The notes under the pieces are model-generated. The model was not told the DNA's origin. It saw only the letters and a list, made by a program, of their open reading frames with translations, and did no database searches. Positions 4,423 through 32,402 of a stretch of 32,402 nucleotides of DNA are shown here, piece after piece. The stretch covers positions 1 through 32,402 of the forward strand of contig CAJXJZ010000017.1 of the NCBI GenBank assembly GCA_913055745.1, in the 5' to 3' direction. Position numbers and translations under genes: made by a program. Source of the stretch: an uncultured bacterium. Lineage in GTDB: Bacteria; Hydrothermota; Hydrothermia; UBA1063; CAJXJZ01. How positions within the stretch are numbered: the first letter of the stretch is position 1; each line of letters begins with the position of its first letter.

Positions 4423-7400
4423 ATAGGTTTTAAATTATATGCACTTATTGTTATTGCTTTAACCCGGGTTTCTTTAAAAGATCCGGGTTATTATGATTAC
4501 CTTATTATTACGCCTCCTTCTTACATTGAAGCAGCAGAGTCTTTAAAAGTATACAGAGAAAGGGAAGGTTATATTACAAAGATTTTGACAACAAATGAAA
4601 TAGAAAAAAGTTTTGAGGGTCAGGATTTTCAAGAAAAGATACGAAATGCTATAAGAATATGGCATTATGATGGCGGTGTAAACTATGTCTTTCTTGCTGC
4701 GGATGATGATAGTATTCCAACAAGAACAGTCCTTGTGCGGTTGGGTTATGGGGAAGATGACTATATCCCATCTGATTATTACTACATGTGTCTTGATGGA
4801 GATTGGAATGCTGATAGGGATAATACTTATGGAGAGAGAGAAGACAATGTTGATTTATACCCTGATGTATCTGTAACTCGTGGCACCTTTCATTCAAAAG
4901 ATGAATTTATGGACTATGTAAACAGGGTTAAGTATTATGAAACATCCATGGGCATGTATGTTAATAGAGCACTTTTTCACTCGTCCACAGTAGAGTATAA
5001 TGAAGATGGCAGTGATTATGTTGACCAGATAGCCGATGTGTTCCCTGATTCTATGGAAAAGCATTTTCTATATCAAGATGAACAGAGTATAAGTAATTCA
5101 GACATAAATAACTATCTTAGTCAAGGTGTAGGTTATTTCCTTACAATGGCTCATGGGGATATAAATGGATTTTATGCAGACTATGCAGATGAATACTATG
5201 GGATAACCAGTATCCCTTCAGATTCAACAAGGTCAACGCTTGTTGATATATTTTCCTGTCATGCTGGTGCCATAGATAGAAACTGCATTCTTGAATCCTT
5301 TTTCTCACATGACATAACAATAGCAGCCAGAGCCAGTTCAAGAAACGATTTTGCTTCTACAACAGATATGCATGTGTCCTTTTACCAGGCAATATTTGAT
5401 GGAAAGACACTTGGGGATGCAACATTTCTTTATAGATTGCCTTATATATCGTATGCAGAAAACACTGACAATGACAAGAGATATGCTATTATGAGCATGA
5501 TTACCCTGGGAGAGCCATTGATTAAATTCTATACCACAACGCCTAAAAGATTTCTCGTAAAGTATTATGAAGACTCTATAAACTTTAATATAATGGTCTT
5601 TTCACAAGATTCTGTTCCACTTTCTGGAATTAAAACGGTCCTTTCAAAAGAAAATGGCTACCTTATTATAGACACTACTGATTTAAATGGCAATGTTTGT
5701 ATTCCCTTATCTATGCTTACGAGAGGAGAGCATAATCTTAATATTACAGGTAATGATTATTTAAGATTAGACACCTTGGTATATGTACATGGATACTCAA
5801 GGCCAGAGATTCAAAGTATCAGGGTAAGTAGTCTTTATGGGGATTATCCAACATCTGGTAGTCCTGTGGCTATGCACATAAAAGGGAATAACCCTTATGG
5901 ATTGCCATCATTACTTTATATATCTTGCAGTATTGGAAGAGATAATTTTTATAATGATTCTATTCATGTTAAAGGTGAATTTGATATAACTGATACATTC
6001 AAGATCCCCTGGTTTTCAGGTAATCGCTTTTTATCCTGCAAGGCACAATTTGATAATACCAATTTTGGAAAAGATACATCTTTGTTGGTATATGGACCTC
6101 TCATTGGCTTTGGTGGTATGGCATTAAAAAATGATACACTCTCTTTATCTATTGTTAACGGAGGTAAAGGACATTCAGATACTTTAAGCATAAAGGTTTC
6201 ATCGTATAGAAAGTTACATAGTTTTACCACGGTAATCCCTCCTTTTAGCGAGAAAAAGATTAAAATACCAACGAACTTGGATAATTTTCCCATAAGTATT
6301 GGTGTACATTCCAATGTTATAGACACTGAATTTATTATTAAAGACACTACTTCACCTTCCCCTCCAGATGGTCTTTATGCGCAATCAATCTCAGAAGGTG
6401 TTTATCTTGTATGGCAGAGCAAGGACGGGCTATACAATATTTACAGGGGAACAGACTCTTCTAATCTTAAGAAATTAAATATATTGCCTCTTTTGTATCC
6501 ATACTATGTGGACCTGGGTCTTAGTTTTGATACAACCTATTACTATGCTGTAACATTTATTGATTCTATGGGATTTGAAAGTACTCTCTCTCACATTGTT
6601 GAAGGTATTCCCAATCCAAAATTGGCTCCTGGGTGGCCTCAGGTTGCAAGTGGCCTTGGATATTCCTCCCCACTCGTTGCAGACATTACGCCACTCTTCC
6701 CTGGTAAGGAAATAATCATAGGATCTTTTGAAGATTCCTTGGTATATGCCTTTTCAAAAGATGGGATACCCCTTCCTGGCTGGCCTGTTAACATAGGGGA
6801 TATAGTGTATTCTGCTCCTGCTGCATATGACCTTGATGGCGATGGATACGATGAGGTTGTAGTGGCAGGTGGTGGCTCATTCACCCATGTATGGGCATTA
6901 AAAGGAGATGGAACAGTCTTGGATGGATGGCCTGTGTACGTTAGAAAAGGTAATTTTACAGGGCCTGCAATAGGTGATTTAAACGGTGATTCTTTACCAG
7001 AGATAGTTTTTGTATCAAGGTCTGGTGGAGTGTATGTATACAACGTTCATGGCACAATGCTTGATTCTATACATCTTTATGCTGGTGGGTTCTCGCCTGC
7101 ATCCATAGGCGATATAAATCAAGATGATACCATGGATATTGTGATTGGGTGCAAGGATAGTGTGGCAGGCCTGTGGGTATTACATATGAGAAATGATACG
7201 GAACTCGTTGTAAATGATGGCTTCCCAAAAGGTCCTTTTAGTTTTAATGCTCCACTTGTTATAGGTGATGTAAGGCCTGATGTTCCAGGCCTTGAGATAT
7301 TTGGCTGCAGCGAGACGAACAGGGCGGTTTTATTTGATTCAAACGGTGATACTTTGTGGACACGGCCAGTAAATAATGCACCTTATTGGTACAACCCATC

Positions 7401-8097
7401 AATATCAGATATTGATGGGGACCAAAATCCAGAACTTTTAGTGAACCAGGGAACAGGTGTGGCTGTGTTTAAAAGTGATGGTAGTTATTTTCCTGGTTAT
7501 CCAACAACAAAGGCTTCTGGCGGGACATGTCAATGTATTACAACAGATTTAAATGGTGATGGCTTTATGGAGATTTTTAAGGGTGGTGTAGATGGAAAAC
7601 TCTATGCACTTACAGAAAATGCAAATATCTTTCCTGGTTTTCCTATAGACCTTAAAGGGTACGCCTATCCAACACCTACAATAGATGATATAGACAATGA
7701 TGGGACCTTGGAACTTATAGCAGCTAGTTGGTCTAATATGGTTTTTGTGTATGAACTTGGTATTCCAGATTCCTTTATCGGGGATTGGCCCACATATCAA
7801 CACGATATACAGAGAACAGGTAATTACAATTGGAAACCACTATCAGGAGTAAAAGAAAAGAGAGAAAATACCCTCGCCTTCTTAGATAGAGATCTTATAG
7901 TAAAAGGACATATCTATTTTAATAAAGATTGGCAAAAGGTTATGCGTATTGATATTTATGATATAACCGGAAGAAAGGTGGTATCTATAAAAAAGCCTTA
8001 CAAGAGGTCTCTTAATCTATCTTCAGGGGTGTATTTTAGTATTTTGAAAACCCAAAAAGGAAAAGAAGTTAAAAAAAGGATAATAGTTTTACCATGA
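4423..8097 (+). CDS. C25 (gingipain-like) cysteine peptidase with T9SS sorting domain; start codon unclear
   Basis: A large exported protein, about 1224 residues if read from ATA 4423. The frame stays open back to the rplU stop, and residues before the first conventional start (TTG 4585) include a short hydrophobic stretch ([10 protein letters not shown]) and [11 protein letters not shown], the usual beginning of the C25 domain. The true start is therefore upstream, although no ATG, GTG or TTG is there; a purine-rich AGGGGG (4409-4414) lies 8 bases before an ATA. The catalytic pair is His in MAHGDINGF (codon 5152) and Cys in DIFSCHAGA (codon 5257). An FN3-like module follows (about 641-735), then six or more FG-GAP/VCBS-type D-x-D-G repeats (about 737-1135). 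The C-terminus ([10 protein letters not shown]...LSSGVYF) is a type A T9SS sorting signal. The stop overlaps the prfA ATG (ATGA). Confidence 0.88.
4461..4489 (+). promoter_or_regulatory. strong hairpin at the 5' end of the C25 peptidase frame
   Basis: AACCCGG (4461-4467) pairs with CCGGGTT (4483-4489), and inside the loop TCTTT can pair with AAAGA. No oligo-T follows, so it is not a standard terminator. It lies between rplU and the peptidase body and could tune readthrough or translation. Confidence 0.5.
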
Positions 8098-21669: not shown

Positions 21670-23298
21670 TTATTTATCCTCTTTTAGGAATGGATACCTA
21701 TAATCCACAGGTGGATTGAAAGTTTCCTTTATCGAACGCACGCTTATCCATCTTAAGAGATTGAGTTTACTTCCTGCCTTATCGTTGGTTCCTGAAGCAC
21801 GAGAGCCACCAAATGGTTGTTGGGCCACAACAGCACCAGTAGGCTTATCATTGATATAGAAATTCCCTGCTGCATGTCTTAGAATATCTTCTGCAAGTTC
21901 TATTGCATACCTATCTTGTGCAAATATAGAGCCCGTAAGTCCATAAGGAGATGTCTCATCGCAAAGATGCAGGGTCTCTTCGTATTTTTCATCCGGATAC
22001 ACATAAACAGTGAGCACAGGACCGAATATCTCCTCCTGCATAAGTTTGTGCTTTGGATTTTTAGTTAAAACGAGTGTGGGTTCAATAAAGTATCCAACAG
22101 AGTCATCGCATTTTCCACCATATACTATCTCTGTATCCACATCATCCTTTGCAATTTGGATATAACTACAAATCTTATCGAATGATGGCTTATCAATGAC
22201 TGCAGTAATGAAGTTTGTAAAGTCTTCAGGCCCACCCATCTTCATGGTCTTTACTTCCTCTGCCATTATTTCTTTTAGTTCATTCCACATGGACTCTGGA
22301 ATATATGCCCGCGATGCGGCAGAGCACTTCTGACCCTGATATTCATAAGCACCCCTTAGAAGGGCTGTGGCTACCGCTTTCACATCTGCTGAAGGATGCA
22401 CAAATACAAAATCTTTACCACCTGTCTCCCCAACGATTCTTGGGTATGACCTATACTTTGATATATTCTGACCTATGGTTTTCCACATATATTGGAATGT
22501 TTTAGTTGAACCTGTGAAATGAACACCTGCAAAATCTGGATGTTCAAATACTTTTTTACCTATCAGAGAAGAATTGCCAGGGATAAAGTTTATAACGCCA
22601 TCTGGCAGGCCTGCTTCTTGCAAGATCTTCATTATGAAATAGTTAGAATATACAACGACAGATGCAGGCTTCCACAACGACACATTACCCATCAAAGCGG
22701 GTGCTGTTGGTAGGTTGCCACCAATAGAAATGAAATTAAAGGGTGGTGCTGCAAATATGAAGCCCTCAAGCGGTCTATACTCAAGTCTATTATAAACTCC
22801 TTTGGAAGATATAGGCTGTTCCCTATATATCTCCCACGCATACCTTGCGTTAAAACGCCAAAAGTCAATAAGTTCCGCTATATCAATTTCGGCTTGGAAT
22901 GCGTTCTTTGAATGAACAAGCATCACAACGGCGTCCATAAAATACCTGTATTTCGTAGAAAGAAGTTCTGCAGCCTTCAAAAAGATGGAAACCCTTTGGT
23001 ACCATGGCATTCTTTGCCATTCTTTTGATGCCTTTAGTGCAGAAGAGATGGCCATCTCAACTTCTTTTTCGCCCGCCTTATGGTATTTACCAATAATCTT
23101 TCCGTGTTCATGTGGAAGACGACATTCACCCAAATTTCCTGTTTTTACTTCCTTGCCACCAATAATAAGAGGTATTTCTATGATATCGCTTCTTATCTTC
23201 TCTATCTCTTTTTTGACCTCTATCCTTTCCTTTGTTCCAGGTGCAAAAGAAAGGATGGGCTCATTGTTTGGAAAAGGAACATCAAAAACTTTTCCCAT
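21670..23298 (-). CDS. pruA: delta-1-pyrroline-5-carboxylate dehydrogenase (ALDH4 type)
   Basis: Oxidises glutamate 5-semialdehyde (from P5C) to glutamate with NAD+ in proline and ornithine catabolism. The 542-residue stand-alone form resembles eukaryotic ALDH4A1 and Bacteroidetes enzymes more than the PutA fusion. The N-terminus (PFPNNEPILSFAPGTKER) is the ALDH4 signature. FAAPPFNFISIGGNLPTAPA is the cofactor region, with catalytic E291 (VGETGGKD) and C325 (GQKCSAASR). QQPFGGSRASGTNDKAG lies near the C-terminus. No proline dehydrogenase is adjacent. The ATG overlaps the upstream gene stop (TAATG) and has its own AGGAGG site. A terminator follows. Confidence 0.95.
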   Translation of the reverse strand: MGKVFDVPFPNNEPILSFAPGTKERIEVKKEIEKIRSDIIEIPLIIGGKEVKTGNLGECRLPHEHGKIIGKYHKAGEKEVEMAISSALKASKEWQRMPWYQRVSIFLKAAELLSTKYRYFMDAVVMLVHSKNAFQAEIDIAELIDFWRFNARYAWEIYREQPISSKGVYNRLEYRPLEGFIFAAPPFNFISIGGNLPTAPALMGNVSLWKPASVVVYSNYFIMKILQEAGLPDGVINFIPGNSSLIGKKVFEHPDFAGVHFTGSTKTFQYMWKTIGQNISKYRSYPRIVGETGGKDFVFVHPSADVKAVATALLRGAYEYQGQKCSAASRAYIPESMWNELKEIMAEEVKTMKMGGPEDFTNFITAVIDKPSFDKICSYIQIAKDDVDTEIVYGGKCDDSVGYFIEPTLVLTKNPKHKLMQEEIFGPVLTVYVYPDEKYEETLHLCDETSPYGLTGSIFAQDRYAIELAEDILRHAAGNFYINDKPTGAVVAQQPFGGSRASGTNDKAGSKLNLLRWISVRSIKETFNPPVDYRYPFLKEDK

Positions 23299-24878
23299 TA
23301 CTCTTCCTCCTTTTTGTTTTCACCGAAGTCCAGTCCAAACTTGATACCCTGTGCAAGCGGAAGGTCATCTCCATAGTTAATAGTAACTGTCTGTCTTCTC
23401 ATGTATCCCTTCCATGCATCAGAGCCTGACTCTCTACCTCCTCCTGTCTCTTTCTCACCGCCAAAGGCTCCACCTATTTCGGCACCTGATGTACTCGTGT
23501 TTACATTGGCTATTCCGCAGTCAGAACCTTTAGCAGAAAGGAATTTTTCCTCATACTTGAGATTGTTAGTAAATATTGCAGATGAAAGTCCTTGAGGAAC
23601 ATCGTTGTGAATCTTAATGGCTTCATCAATATCCTTTATTTTTATTACATAAAGGATTGGTGCAAAGGTTTCTCTTTTGACAATCTCCATATCAGGCCTT
23701 GCTTCTACAATTGTTGGCTCAACATAAAAACCATTTTCTTCCTCTATTACATTACCACCAACAAGGATTTTACCACCCTGTTTTTTGATCTCCTCAATGG
23801 CATTTTTATAAACATGTATTGCATTCTTATCAATAAGTGGACCACAGAGTACGCCTTCATCCAGTGGATTGCCTACTTTTACCTGTTTGTAAAGGTCTAT
23901 AAGTTCAGAAAGGAATTTGTCATAGATCTTTTCATGTAATAGGAGTCTTCTTGTGGTTGTACATCTTTGACCTGCTGTTCCCACAGCACCAAATAGTATT
24001 GCCTTCTTTGCTACAACAAAATTGGCATCTTCCATTACAATAGCGGCATTATTACCACCCAATTCAAGTATAGTTCTCCCAAGTCTTTTTGCAACACGTT
24101 CTGACACATGCTTCCCCTGAGGTATTGAACCTGTGAATGAAATAAGAGGAAGTCTTTTATCGTTTATCATCCACTCCCCTACTTCACTACCTTTGCCTAT
24201 GACAAGGTTGAATATTCCATTGGGAAGACCGAATTCCTCTAATACCTGTTCAATAATCTTTTGGACGGCTATTGCTGAAAGGGGTGCAGAACTTGAAGGT
24301 TTCCACACCATTGTATCACCACAAACAGCAGCAATAAAGGCATTCCATGAATAGACAGCAACTGGAAAGTTAAATGATGTAATTACACCTATGGGGCCAA
24401 GAGGAAGCCATTGTTCGTACAACCTATGATGCTCCCTCTCAGATTGTATTGTAAGACCATACAACTGCCTAGAAAGGCCAAGTGCAAAGTCAGATATGTC
24501 AATCATCTCCTGCACTTCACCTGTTCCCTCTTGATAGATTTTTCCGACTTCAATTGTAACCAATTTTCCAAGAATGTCTTTGTACTCTCTGAGCCTATTA
24601 CCAATTTCCCTTACGATCTGTCCCCTTTTTGGAGCAGGCACCTCTCTCCAGTATTCAAATCCTTTTTTTGCCTCTTGTATAACCCTTTCGTAGTCCTCTT
24701 TTGTAGCAAGTGCAACCTTTGCTATGGGCTTTCCATCTATTGGAGAGATAGAATCTATAAGATTCCTTCCTTCTATGGGGCTCCATCCACCCTTGCCTGT
24801 GCTTACACCGGAGTTTACCTCCTCAAGGCCGAGTTTAGAGAGAACTTCCTGTATTACCTCCTTAGAGACCTCTGCCAT
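23298..24878 (-). CDS. ALDH7-type aldehyde dehydrogenase (aminoadipate semialdehyde dehydrogenase-like)
   Basis: A 526-residue NAD(P)-dependent dehydrogenase of the antiquitin class, whose members oxidise alpha-aminoadipic semialdehyde in lysine breakdown as well as other aldehydes. Characteristic blocks are WLPLGPIGVITSFNFPVAVY, catalytic E272 in LELGGNN, nucleophile C306 in GTAGQRCTTTRR, and a C-terminal block with GAEIGGAFGGEKETGGG. A strong AAGGAGGT site is seven bases before the ATG, and a promoter is visible upstream. It is co-translated with the P5C dehydrogenase. Pairing ALDH7 with ALDH4 suggests amino-acid-derived semialdehydes as substrates; the exact substrate is inferred. Confidence 0.93.
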   Translation of the reverse strand: MAEVSKEVIQEVLSKLGLEEVNSGVSTGKGGWSPIEGRNLIDSISPIDGKPIAKVALATKEDYERVIQEAKKGFEYWREVPAPKRGQIVREIGNRLREYKDILGKLVTIEVGKIYQEGTGEVQEMIDISDFALGLSRQLYGLTIQSEREHHRLYEQWLPLGPIGVITSFNFPVAVYSWNAFIAAVCGDTMVWKPSSSAPLSAIAVQKIIEQVLEEFGLPNGIFNLVIGKGSEVGEWMINDKRLPLISFTGSIPQGKHVSERVAKRLGRTILELGGNNAAIVMEDANFVVAKKAILFGAVGTAGQRCTTTRRLLLHEKIYDKFLSELIDLYKQVKVGNPLDEGVLCGPLIDKNAIHVYKNAIEEIKKQGGKILVGGNVIEEENGFYVEPTIVEARPDMEIVKRETFAPILYVIKIKDIDEAIKIHNDVPQGLSSAIFTNNLKYEEKFLSAKGSDCGIANVNTSTSGAEIGGAFGGEKETGGGRESGSDAWKGYMRRQTVTINYGDDLPLAQGIKFGLDFGENKKEEE

Positions 24879-26224: not shown

Positions 26225-27268
26225 GTGGAAAAGTACATAAAACTCCTTATGAACCTTTCTGACGCATTTGGGCCTTCTGGTTTTGAGGAAGATATAAGAG
26301 ATCTCATAAAGGAAAGGATAAGAGGTCTTGGATACACCTATTCAGTTGATAGAAGGGGTAATCTGATAGCAACAAAGAAGGGGACCGGGAATTACACCGT
26401 GATAGTAGATGCTCATATGGATGAGGTTGGATTTATGGTAAAATACATATCAGAGAGAGGATTTATTCAGGTTGTGCCCATAGGGGGATACGATGAGAGG
26501 ATTTTGCCAGGTCATATAATTAAATTCAAGATCAATAATGATTTTGTAGAAGGTGTTTTTTCTACACTCCCACCACATGTTTTATCACCAGATGAGAGGC
26601 AAAAGCCATTAAAATTAGATAAACTCTGGGTAGATGTGGGTGTATCTTCAAGAAAAGAAGTGCTGAAAATGGGTATAAAACAAGGCACGCCTGGTGTTAT
26701 ACATTATCCTTCACGCAAAATGGGAAATAGCATAATGGGGAAGGCATTTGATGATAGAGCAGGTTGTGCTGTTTTATTGTATCTCATGGAAGAACTTAAA
26801 GATGTAAATTTACCTTATGATATTGTGTTTGCCTTTGCCGTACAAGAAGAAGTCGGACTACGTGGTGCAGAAGTGATAAAAGAACAGTATAAAGGTGATA
26901 TAGCACTCATATTTGAAGGCACACTTGCAACAGATATGGAAGGTGTTCCTGAAAAGAGTATGATAACACAGGTTGGTAAGGGACCTGCTTTAACACTTAT
27001 GGACAGAAGCGTTATTGTCTCACAGAAACTCTTAAGATTCATTGAACATGTGGCAGAAACGCATAATATACCATATCAGTATAAGATGCCCGGTGTGGGC
27101 GGTACAAATGGCGGTGCCTATGCGAGAAAGAATACAGAGGTTGCAGTAATTGCTGCGCCAAGCAGGAACATACACTCTGCCACTTCACTTATTAATGTTC
27201 TTGATTTTGAAAATACATTAAAACTTGCAAAAGAGGTGATGCTCTCCCTTCATGAATATATAGAGTGA
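26225..27268 (+). CDS. M42 family metallo-aminopeptidase
   Basis: A cytosolic dizinc aminopeptidase of the TET/glutamyl-aminopeptidase family (also mislabelled endoglucanase in older annotations), 347 residues. Metal and catalytic residues are visible: H64 in DAHMDEVGF, bridging D176 in GKAFDDRAG, base E208 and ligand E209 in VQEEVGLRGA, E231 in IFEGTLATD, and H317 in RNIHS. VGGTNGGAYA is a family signature. It trims peptides after proteasome-like or Lon digestion. The start is GTG, fixed by AGGAGG. The stop overlaps the start of the C5-epimerase-like gene (GTGA), linking a peptidase to a glycan locus without an obvious reason. Confidence 0.95.
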   Translation: MEKYIKLLMNLSDAFGPSGFEEDIRDLIKERIRGLGYTYSVDRRGNLIATKKGTGNYTVIVDAHMDEVGFMVKYISERGFIQVVPIGGYDERILPGHIIKFKINNDFVEGVFSTLPPHVLSPDERQKPLKLDKLWVDVGVSSRKEVLKMGIKQGTPGVIHYPSRKMGNSIMGKAFDDRAGCAVLLYLMEELKDVNLPYDIVFAFAVQEEVGLRGAEVIKEQYKGDIALIFEGTLATDMEGVPEKSMITQVGKGPALTLMDRSVIVSQKLLRFIEHVAETHNIPYQYKMPGVGGTNGGAYARKNTEVAVIAAPSRNIHSATSLINVLDFENTLKLAKEVMLSLHEYIE

Positions 27269-28230
27269 AAAATAGATTATTCTATCTTCTGCGCATTTTT
27301 GAATCTTATGTATTAAGAAAACAGAGTCATTTAGATTTTTGGCATGGTAGTTTAGAGATAAATCCTTATGCCAGTTATGACAGATTGGGTCCGTATTATC
27401 AGAGGTTTAGATATAAGGCGGCATACAAAGGTCCAAGAGATGAAAATGGCATTTTGCTCCTTGACTATCATGGAAAGATAGGAAAGCAATATAACCCCAT
27501 CGCAATAGCCCAGTATGGACTTGGACATTATAATCTCTGTGTTGAAGGCACTAAAAAAAGTTGTAAAGAATTTTTAAAGATGGCGGATTTTCTTGTAAAT
27601 ACACTTGAAAAGAATGAGAAAAATAAATATGTCTGGTACCATCACTTTGACTGGGATTATCATGGTAAGGTTCTCGCTCCGTGGTATTCAGGCTTAGCTC
27701 AGGGAAATGGTATCTCTCTCCTCCTTCGGGCATATGCTACAACAGGAGATAAAAAATACCTCAAAACTGCAGAACTTGCTTCAGAGAGCCTGTTCGCTCC
27801 ATTGAAAGATGGAGGATGTACATATACAGATTTAAATGGATTTAAATGGATTGAAGAGATTATAAGGGTTCCACCAACCCATATTTTAAATGGTTTTATG
27901 TGGGCACTTTTTGGCGTATATGACCTCTACCTTTTGACAAAAAATGAATATCATAAAAATGCATTTGAAGATTACACGAAAACATTAAGGCATAACCTGC
28001 GCATTTTTGATGCAGGTATCTGGAGTTATTATGATGCGAGTGAAGACAAAATGCTTGCGAGTTTGTTTTATCACAGACTACATATCATTCAACTCAGGAT
28101 CTTATACAAAATGACGAAAATAGATACATTCAGAAATTACGCAGAAAAATGGTATGCCTATGCTCAAAATGAACTAAACAAACTAATAGCCCTTTTTTAT
28201 AAATCAGGTTTTAAACTATTAAAATACTAA
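27265..28230 (+). CDS. D-glucuronyl C5-epimerase-like protein
   Basis: A 321-residue protein resembling the C-terminal catalytic domain of heparan/heparosan glucuronyl C5-epimerase, an alpha/alpha-barrel enzyme that flips glucuronate to iduronate in a polymer. Typical segments are YNPIAIAQYGLGHYNL, APWYSGLAQGNGISLLLRAY with TGDKKYLKTA, THILNGFMWALFGVYDLY, and YYDASEDKMLASLFYHRLHI. No signal peptide is present, so it would work inside the cell or needs another partner. Bacterial homologues with heparosan epimerase activity are known (Bermanella). The GTG start overlaps the M42 stop by four bases. Two glycosyltransferase genes follow, so it probably acts on their glycan; the real substrate is unknown. 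Confidence 0.85.
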   Translation: MKNRLFYLLRIFESYVLRKQSHLDFWHGSLEINPYASYDRLGPYYQRFRYKAAYKGPRDENGILLLDYHGKIGKQYNPIAIAQYGLGHYNLCVEGTKKSCKEFLKMADFLVNTLEKNEKNKYVWYHHFDWDYHGKVLAPWYSGLAQGNGISLLLRAYATTGDKKYLKTAELASESLFAPLKDGGCTYTDLNGFKWIEEIIRVPPTHILNGFMWALFGVYDLYLLTKNEYHKNAFEDYTKTLRHNLRIFDAGIWSYYDASEDKMLASLFYHRLHIIQLRILYKMTKIDTFRNYAEKWYAYAQNELNKLIALFYKSGFKLLKY

Positions 28231-31770: not shown

Positions 31771-32402
31771 ATGAAAGAATTAGAGAAAGATTACTACATA
31801 GATGGGTTAACAGGTGTTTATAGTCGCAAATATCTCCATTTAATAGTGAGTAGAGAGATTGAGCGAAGCAAGAGATACAACGAGCAATTTTCCATAATGA
31901 TATTAGACATAGACGATTTCAAGTTAATAAATGACACATATGGTCACCAGAGAGGAGACAGTGTATTAGCACTGCTTGCAGACACATTAAAGAGAGTATT
32001 AAGGGAATCAGACAGCATAATAAGGTATGGAGGAGACGAATTCATCGTAATAATGCCCAAGGCAGGTATAACAGAGAGTACCAAAGTAGCGAGCAGGGTT
32101 ATAGAGGCAGTAAAGGGAGTAAAAAGAGGTGATATACAATTAAGCGTAAGCATAGGAATAAGTTCATATCCAGACAATGGAGAGGGATGGGAGGAGGTAT
32201 TCAGTGCAGCAGACAGGGCGTTATACGAATCCAAGAGGCTTGGGAAAGGGAGATATGAAGTAGCAGGAGGAGGGATAAAGGGACTTATAATACCCACGAA
32301 GAAGTTAATAGGAAGGCGAAAGGAGCAGAGCGAACTTGCGAGGATGATAGAGGAGAGAGGCAAATTACATTTAGTAGTAGGGGAGATAGGAATAGGTAAG
32401 AC
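31771..32402 (+). CDS. GGDEF diguanylate cyclase fused to an AAA ATPase, 3'-truncated by window edge
   Basis: The frame is open to the right edge; 210 full codons are visible. Residues 8-165 are a GGDEF domain: YIDGLTGVYSRKYL, MILDIDDFKLINDTYGHQ with the metal Asp, YGGDEF at 86-91, and VSIGISSYP. An RESD at 78-81, five residues before GGDEF, is a product-inhibition I-site. After a linker, LIGRRKEQSELARMIEERG and the Walker A GEIGIGKT (204-211) start an AAA ATPase of the AAA_16/STAND kind, usually followed by TPR repeats. It would make c-di-GMP under ATPase control. Codon use is striking: 21 of 23 isoleucines are ATA and 11 of 14 valines GTA, unlike its neighbours. Confidence 0.92.
   Translation, partial: MKELEKDYYIDGLTGVYSRKYLHLIVSREIERSKRYNEQFSIMILDIDDFKLINDTYGHQRGDSVLALLADTLKRVLRESDSIIRYGGDEFIVIMPKAGITESTKVASRVIEAVKGVKRGDIQLSVSIGISSYPDNGEGWEEVFSAADRALYESKRLGKGRYEVAGGGIKGLIIPTKKLIGRRKEQSELARMIEERGKLHLVVGEIGIGK

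Follow-up and report, generated by a model that had tools for sequence, protein, structure and literature searches.

The last gene of a contig from an uncultured member of the Hydrothermota carries a codon usage that sets it apart from its genome, and the deviation is real: transfer, expression level and family membership all fail to explain it. The codon style recurs, more strongly, in a central module belonging to two related genes, A and B. There it is maintained across species divergence, and the module shows the pattern of concerted evolution, with the paralogues of one genome alike and the orthologues apart. Our best explanation as a whole, to which we assign a probability of about 0.5, is that the gene encodes a signal-gated cyclase, that gene conversion homogenizes the A/B module and that a linked process holds the codons and also touches the last gene of the contig. 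Here, the window is the whole stretch of 32,402 bp that was analyzed and corresponds to the entire contig C17 of its assembly (G000; 1.79 Mb, 63 contigs, 95.4% complete); the window gene is its last open reading frame (Table 1).

Table 1. Features of the window gene, in window coordinates
Feature	Position	Strand	Basis or remark
5' part of GGDEF-AAA_16-TPR gene	31771..32402	+	210 complete codons and two bases; truncated where the contig stops
GGDEF diguanylate cyclase domain, residues 9-160	31795..32250	+	Pfam PF00990, NCBIfam TIGR00254 and PDB matches
Codon-skewed stretch (ATA, GTA, TTA, GAG, AGR, AGY)	31831..32402	+	sliding score; no sharp border
RESD, RxxD I-site, five residues upstream of GGDEF	32002..32013	+	position in translation; assigned by the RxxD rule
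GGDEF signature	32029..32043	+	position in translation
Walker A, GEIGIGK(T)	32380..32402	+	GEIGIGK at 32380-32400, then AC

As the window is a complete contig and the frame 31771–32400 stays open up to its end, the gene is truncated there. The cyclase domain scored 146.7 bits against PF00990 (curated cut-off 23.8) and 165.3 bits against TIGR00254, and the best PDB matches in a sequence search were diguanylate cyclases, such as 3ign. The intact GGDEF signature and RxxD site reported in an earlier, sequence-only reading of the window were both recovered; we take the RESD ahead of GGDEF to be the I-site by the RxxD rule. N and D of the IND...GD pattern, which in PleD bind guanine, are also present. 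Given the domain and its motifs, the gene is predicted to encode a diguanylate cyclase making c-di-GMP. The Walker A motif placed after the cyclase domain by the same reading was likewise found and is complete, because the terminal AC dictates threonine whatever base follows.

The rest of the architecture comes from full-length relatives, which are about 1,040 to 1,130 aa long and follow the plan GGDEF-AAA_16-TPR. Two of them, on contigs C16 (1,048 aa) and C8 (1,039 aa), belong to the window's genome and, together with G003:C17 from a related genome, reached 47.8, 36.4 and 52.6 bits for AAA_16 (cut-off 32.6), followed by TPRs; C8 further matched TPR_MalT (63.9 bits, cut-off 45) and came slightly below the cut-off for NB-ARC (20.9 against 23.5 bits). 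The proposed GGDEF-ATPase fusion is borne out in this sense: the window holds the GGDEF domain, and AAA_16 and TPRs follow in the relatives, outside the window itself. A family match at 1e-20 or better was found in 41 of the 60 genomes searched. When paralogues were counted, as had been suggested, open frames longer than 1,000 aa that extend to the Walker A motif numbered at least 14 in G003 and at least eight in G001, and we therefore regard the family as expanded. The window fusion is an ordinary member of this known kind within a lineage-specific expansion. In a tree of 41 family proteins, the window protein grouped with three proteins of its own genus (G003:C17, G002:C415 and G003:C75) with a support of 99/96 and identities of 52–54%. 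A transfer from outside the genus, one of two explanations previously offered for the codons, is therefore disfavored.

We propose that the complete gene would encode a protein of approximately 1,060 aa in which the TPRs bind a signal, the AAA_16/STAND-like ATPase swaps ADP for ATP and then assembles, and the assembly pairs the GGDEF domains; c-di-GMP would then be made until the I-site stops synthesis. That the ATPase gates the cyclase is plausible if STAND proteins are taken as the model: according to the available text of PMC6468293, a bound signal should open a STAND ATPase with a TPR sensor and drive its assembly, which in the window family would bring the GGDEF domains together. The family shares the ATPase-then-TPR order with the STAND proteins MalT and PH0952 treated in that text but differs from them in using a GGDEF domain as the effector and in an ATPase that scores best with AAA_16. 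A sequence search of solved structures with the ATPase part returned TPRs only and no ATPase relative. The window protein has the GGDEF, RxxD and IND...GD residues of the I-site cyclases of the PleD/WspR type, whereas the input of its family is a C-terminal ATPase-TPR part rather than an N-terminal receiver, GAF or PAS domain. Class III cyclase-AAA_16-TPR proteins have an identical plan with another catalytic domain; the window's genome contains one on contig C58 (L031:633-3386), where a 918-aa class III cyclase-AAA_16 protein precedes a frame coding for a TPR-like protein. Our literature search yielded no description that we recognized of a GGDEF-STAND-TPR family by name, and the available text of PMC7159879 mentions GGDEF only in vWA-MoxR systems.

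Searches of the window's genome, an assembly about 95% complete in which genes may be missing by chance, found no EAL domain and none of the PilZ receptors that the sequence-only reading had proposed to look for. Two MshEN matches were detected, and the one that could be read lacks the RLG motif. The only candidate c-di-GMP phosphodiesterase seen was an HD_5-GAF-GGDEF protein on contig C30 (L024:2819-4399) with HHEYVNGKGYP, which we take to be an HD-GYP-like motif. Contig C2 encodes an unusual combination of GGDEF, sigma-54 activator ATPase and Fis-type HTH in 618 aa (L019:2341-4194).

Codon preferences usually characterize a whole genome or an expression level. In the window gene, 21 of 23 Ile codons are ATA and 11 of 14 Val codons are GTA, the counts given earlier; across 259 sampled ORFs of the genome (276,581 bases), the shares are 0.51 for ATA and 0.34 for GTA (uncorrected binomial P values of 5.4e-5 and 7.9e-4). 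The impression that its codons are unlike those of nearby genes was well founded. The gene ranked first among the 259 sampled ORFs in overall codon deviation and first in ATA share among the 208 genes with at least 15 Ile, and it had the lowest third-position T among the 221 genes of at least 150 aa. The ribosomal and elongation-factor genes checked in the same genome lack the pattern; such genes are likely to be highly expressed, and we rejected high expression as the cause of the skew.

To summarize the skew, we defined a preferred-codon score as the share of ATA, GTA, TTA, GAG, AAG, AGG and AGY among the codons of their seven amino acids; the set was derived from the A/B module, after ATA and GTA had already been flagged in the window gene. 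The window gene scored 0.698 (88/126) against 0.363 ± 0.059, the highest of the 259 ORFs. Its first 20 or so codons were nearer to the background in a sliding score, and a change-point within the gene had a support of only 2.99. We then considered the 31 full-length family genes that passed a length and motif filter (loci L085, L218, L221 and L227 contributed none). All 31 use ordinary codons, with a score of 0.17–0.51 in every region; for the window gene, the two regions covered score 0.61 and 0.76. The sequence-only reading had also named an expanded gene family as a possible source of the codons: the membership and the expansion stand, but family membership does not account for the skew.

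The sister genes emerged from contig ends. In the window's genome, contigs C4 and C13 both terminate inside a GGDEF domain and have their last 55 bases in common, and contigs C2 and C47 both start in a TPR region and have their first 55 bases in common; equivalent forks with 127 shared bases on each side were found in G001 and G003. Shared ends of this kind are the trace of a repeat in a word-based assembly, from which we infer two genes per genome with a common middle. As read from these ends, each genome has a gene A and a gene B with differing beginnings and ends around a shared central module, which comprises the middle of the GGDEF domain, the ATPase and the first TPRs. Among the four genus genomes, we saw the 5' ends of A in three and of B in four and the 3' ends of A in four and of B in three (the reading in G002 was confined to the 5' end of B and the 3' end of A); as no assembly spans the module, the pairing of 5' and 3' ends is an assumption. 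In all four assemblies, the readable sequence lacks the portion of the module that holds Walker A. In a tree of the N-terminal parts, A and B each formed one clade across species, the A clade with a support of 93/84, which falls under the star mark. Gene A has an intact GGDEF in the motif RYGGDEF, whereas gene B reads RYRGDLF and, lacking the signature, is probably inactive as a cyclase. The pair suggests that cyclases with a live and a dead GGDEF domain share one ATPase platform. Contig C160 of G002, at first assigned to A/B, was dropped, as on inspection by eye it appears related to C8.

Within a genome, A and B are nearly identical across the module. On its 5' side, the nucleotide identity was 1.0 in G003 (39 codons), G001 (39) and G000 (16); on its 3' side, it was 0.981 in G003 over 108 codons, all identical in protein, 1.0 in G001 over 32 codons and 0.955 in G000 over 22. 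Between species, identities of A with A and of B with B were 0.79–0.91. At third positions, the contrast was larger, with 0.91–1.0 within the three genomes against 0.62–0.78 between species. Beyond the module, A and B shared 0.62 of nucleotides upstream and 0.38–0.41 downstream. Part of the agreement exists by construction, because the shared assembler word must match, although the 3' stretch in G003 extends well past its 127-base word. Long-lasting concerted evolution is known in prokaryotes, where the available text of PMC6053082 deals with full-length genes (tuf and others). Paralogues alike at silent sites and orthologues apart are common to the tuf type as described there and to A/B; the latter differ in sharing a central module only, with a codon table of its own, and in joining an active-looking with a probably inactive paralogue. 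We recognized no description of a codon-skewed, concertedly evolving conversion module in the literature searched.

The codon table of the module is close to one codon per amino acid for several residues. In the module pieces of G002, we counted ATA in 44 of 45 Ile, AAG in 29 of 29 Lys, GAG in 67 of 71 Glu, TTA in 30 of 37 Leu, GTA in 24 of 35 Val, AGG in 21 of 34 Arg and AGY in 29 of 33 Ser codons; in the same reading frame, the score was 0.87 in the module and 0.30 in the flank. The switch takes place within a few codons near the border of A/B identity. The 5' change-point fell at ILPNT in four of the five ends; for the remaining one (A of G003), codon 57 came out best, within a supported range of 56–108 that takes in ILPNT. 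The 3' change-point was at or just past GDVYMY in all seven ends (A in G000–G003; B in G000, G001 and G003), which, the sequences being related, do not amount to seven independent events. Identity between A and B begins within about two codons of the 5' change-point and stops about 6–12 codons past the 3' one. Between species, module codons for the same amino acid were identical in 0.62–0.76 (small samples of 16–93 codons), close to the 0.64–0.69 that codons drawn independently from the table of the module itself would give. The skew thus persists despite the turnover of silent sites and is therefore maintained; a decaying relic would have drifted to the background, and the module has not.

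Codon style places the window gene beside the module. Among 7,108 windows, which overlap and pool the window's genome with relatives (some loci also overlapping each other), it was the fourth-ranked ORF behind three module-bearing ORFs; only these four exceeded a score of 0.70, and the next ORF reached 0.68. In control sets, 0.70 was reached by one of 109 ORFs in the relatives' loci, the G002 module itself, and by none of 572 ORFs in named genomes. The skew of the window gene is weaker, 0.70 against 0.82–0.87, and differs from the module in Arg (AGA 7, AGG 7), Lys (AAA 7/18) and Gly (GGA); its log-odds against the module codon table are about zero, placing it between module and background. It has no close DNA match to A or B in the comparable module region (nucleotide identity 0.46–0.55), and its last 200 bases have no other match within the bin. 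The window contig breaks at the Walker A motif, inside the ATPase region likewise lost from A and B. That the two skews share a cause, which we infer from codon style alone, has about even odds.

A search with the G003:C17 relative identified an open frame of 444 aa with which contig C56 begins and which is probably the other half of the gene, its 3' part. In its two best matches, relatives that also lead for the window part, the frame aligns to residues 622–1060, and some 400 residues, the ATPase, would be missing between the halves. Owing to identities of 27–28% and a gene order not in common with these relatives, the assignment stays at probable; contigs C2 and C47 were also considered as the 3' half and were rejected as C56 fits the same relatives better. 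The codons of C56 are ordinary, unlike those of the window part, and we count this against a shared process acting on the window gene.

We considered what could hold such a codon set. In our preferred explanation, recurrent gene conversion between the paralogues A and B would homogenize the module, and a process tied to the conversion, either biased repair or selection acting on the coding strand, which is rich in G and poor in C, would hold its codons and touch the window gene more weakly. A more specific form, which we advance only tentatively, is an ongoing conversion-coupled process that rewrites the silent sites to about one codon per amino acid in the active and the dead paralogue of each species, both keeping an identical assembly platform, with the window gene as a third target, less far advanced or more weakly affected. 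Selection on translation or mRNA, with a codon set serving speed, cotranslational folding or regulation through particular tRNAs and the A/B homogenization a separate matter, would cover the window gene without shared DNA. It would also fit the persistence of the skew through silent-site turnover and the way the third base follows the second (A after T; G after A or C). It appears doubtful, given that the skew is absent from the likely highly expressed genes and from every one of the 31 full-length relatives, whose domains are the same, and that it ends near the border of A/B identity and not at a domain border.

Less likely still is a local DNA bias, in which mutation that differs between the strands, or selection favoring a coding strand that is G-rich, C-poor and prone to R-loops or G-quadruplexes, would itself provoke the recombination. 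The module is indeed rich in G (0.362) and poor in C (0.074) in comparison with its flank (0.228 and 0.168); its windows in G002 have a GC skew of 0.58–0.76 and the module a G4Hunter-like score of 0.51–0.72, exceeding the maxima of 0.55 (over the 3,387 windows of the window's genome) and 0.49. C is not simply lost, however, as GAC makes up 13 of 27 Asp codons against 0.26 in the background and the C-free codons TTG, ATT and AAA are avoided, and we rejected cytosine loss alone as the cause; furthermore, the GC skew of the window gene (0.22–0.47) is within the range of other genes. The import of the gene, or of its 5' part, from an organism rich in ATA and GTA would account for its being the most deviant ORF sampled, but we consider it quite improbable: the protein nests within its genus, the module protein has seven genus members as its best other matches (38–44%), ahead of G047 from another family of the phylum (38%), a scan of viral contigs with the module gave no match, and silent-site turnover without loss of the skew speaks against a decaying import. 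An assembly chimera or artefact, suggested by contig ends falling within the A, B and window genes, is the least probable of all, as the module ends show the same skew and borders in four separate assemblies and the 55 and 127 bases shared at contig ends resemble assembler words, which true repeats leave.

If the conversion-linked explanation holds up, the module offers a natural setting for telling recombination and silent-site choice apart by experiment. The forks also serve as a warning that short-read assemblies lose genes like A and B.

Elsewhere in the window, we observed a type IX secretion sorting tail on a protein of 1,170 aa (4585–8097; TIGR04183, 24.9 bits, cut-off 23) and two adjacent aldehyde dehydrogenases (21670–24878), which match L-glutamate gamma-semialdehyde dehydrogenase with 819.9 bits and L-piperidine-6-carboxylate dehydrogenase with 776.6 bits, each above the cut-off. 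The protein encoded at 27265–28230, adjoining glycosyltransferase genes, carries a D-glucuronyl C5-epimerase C-terminal domain (153.6 bits).
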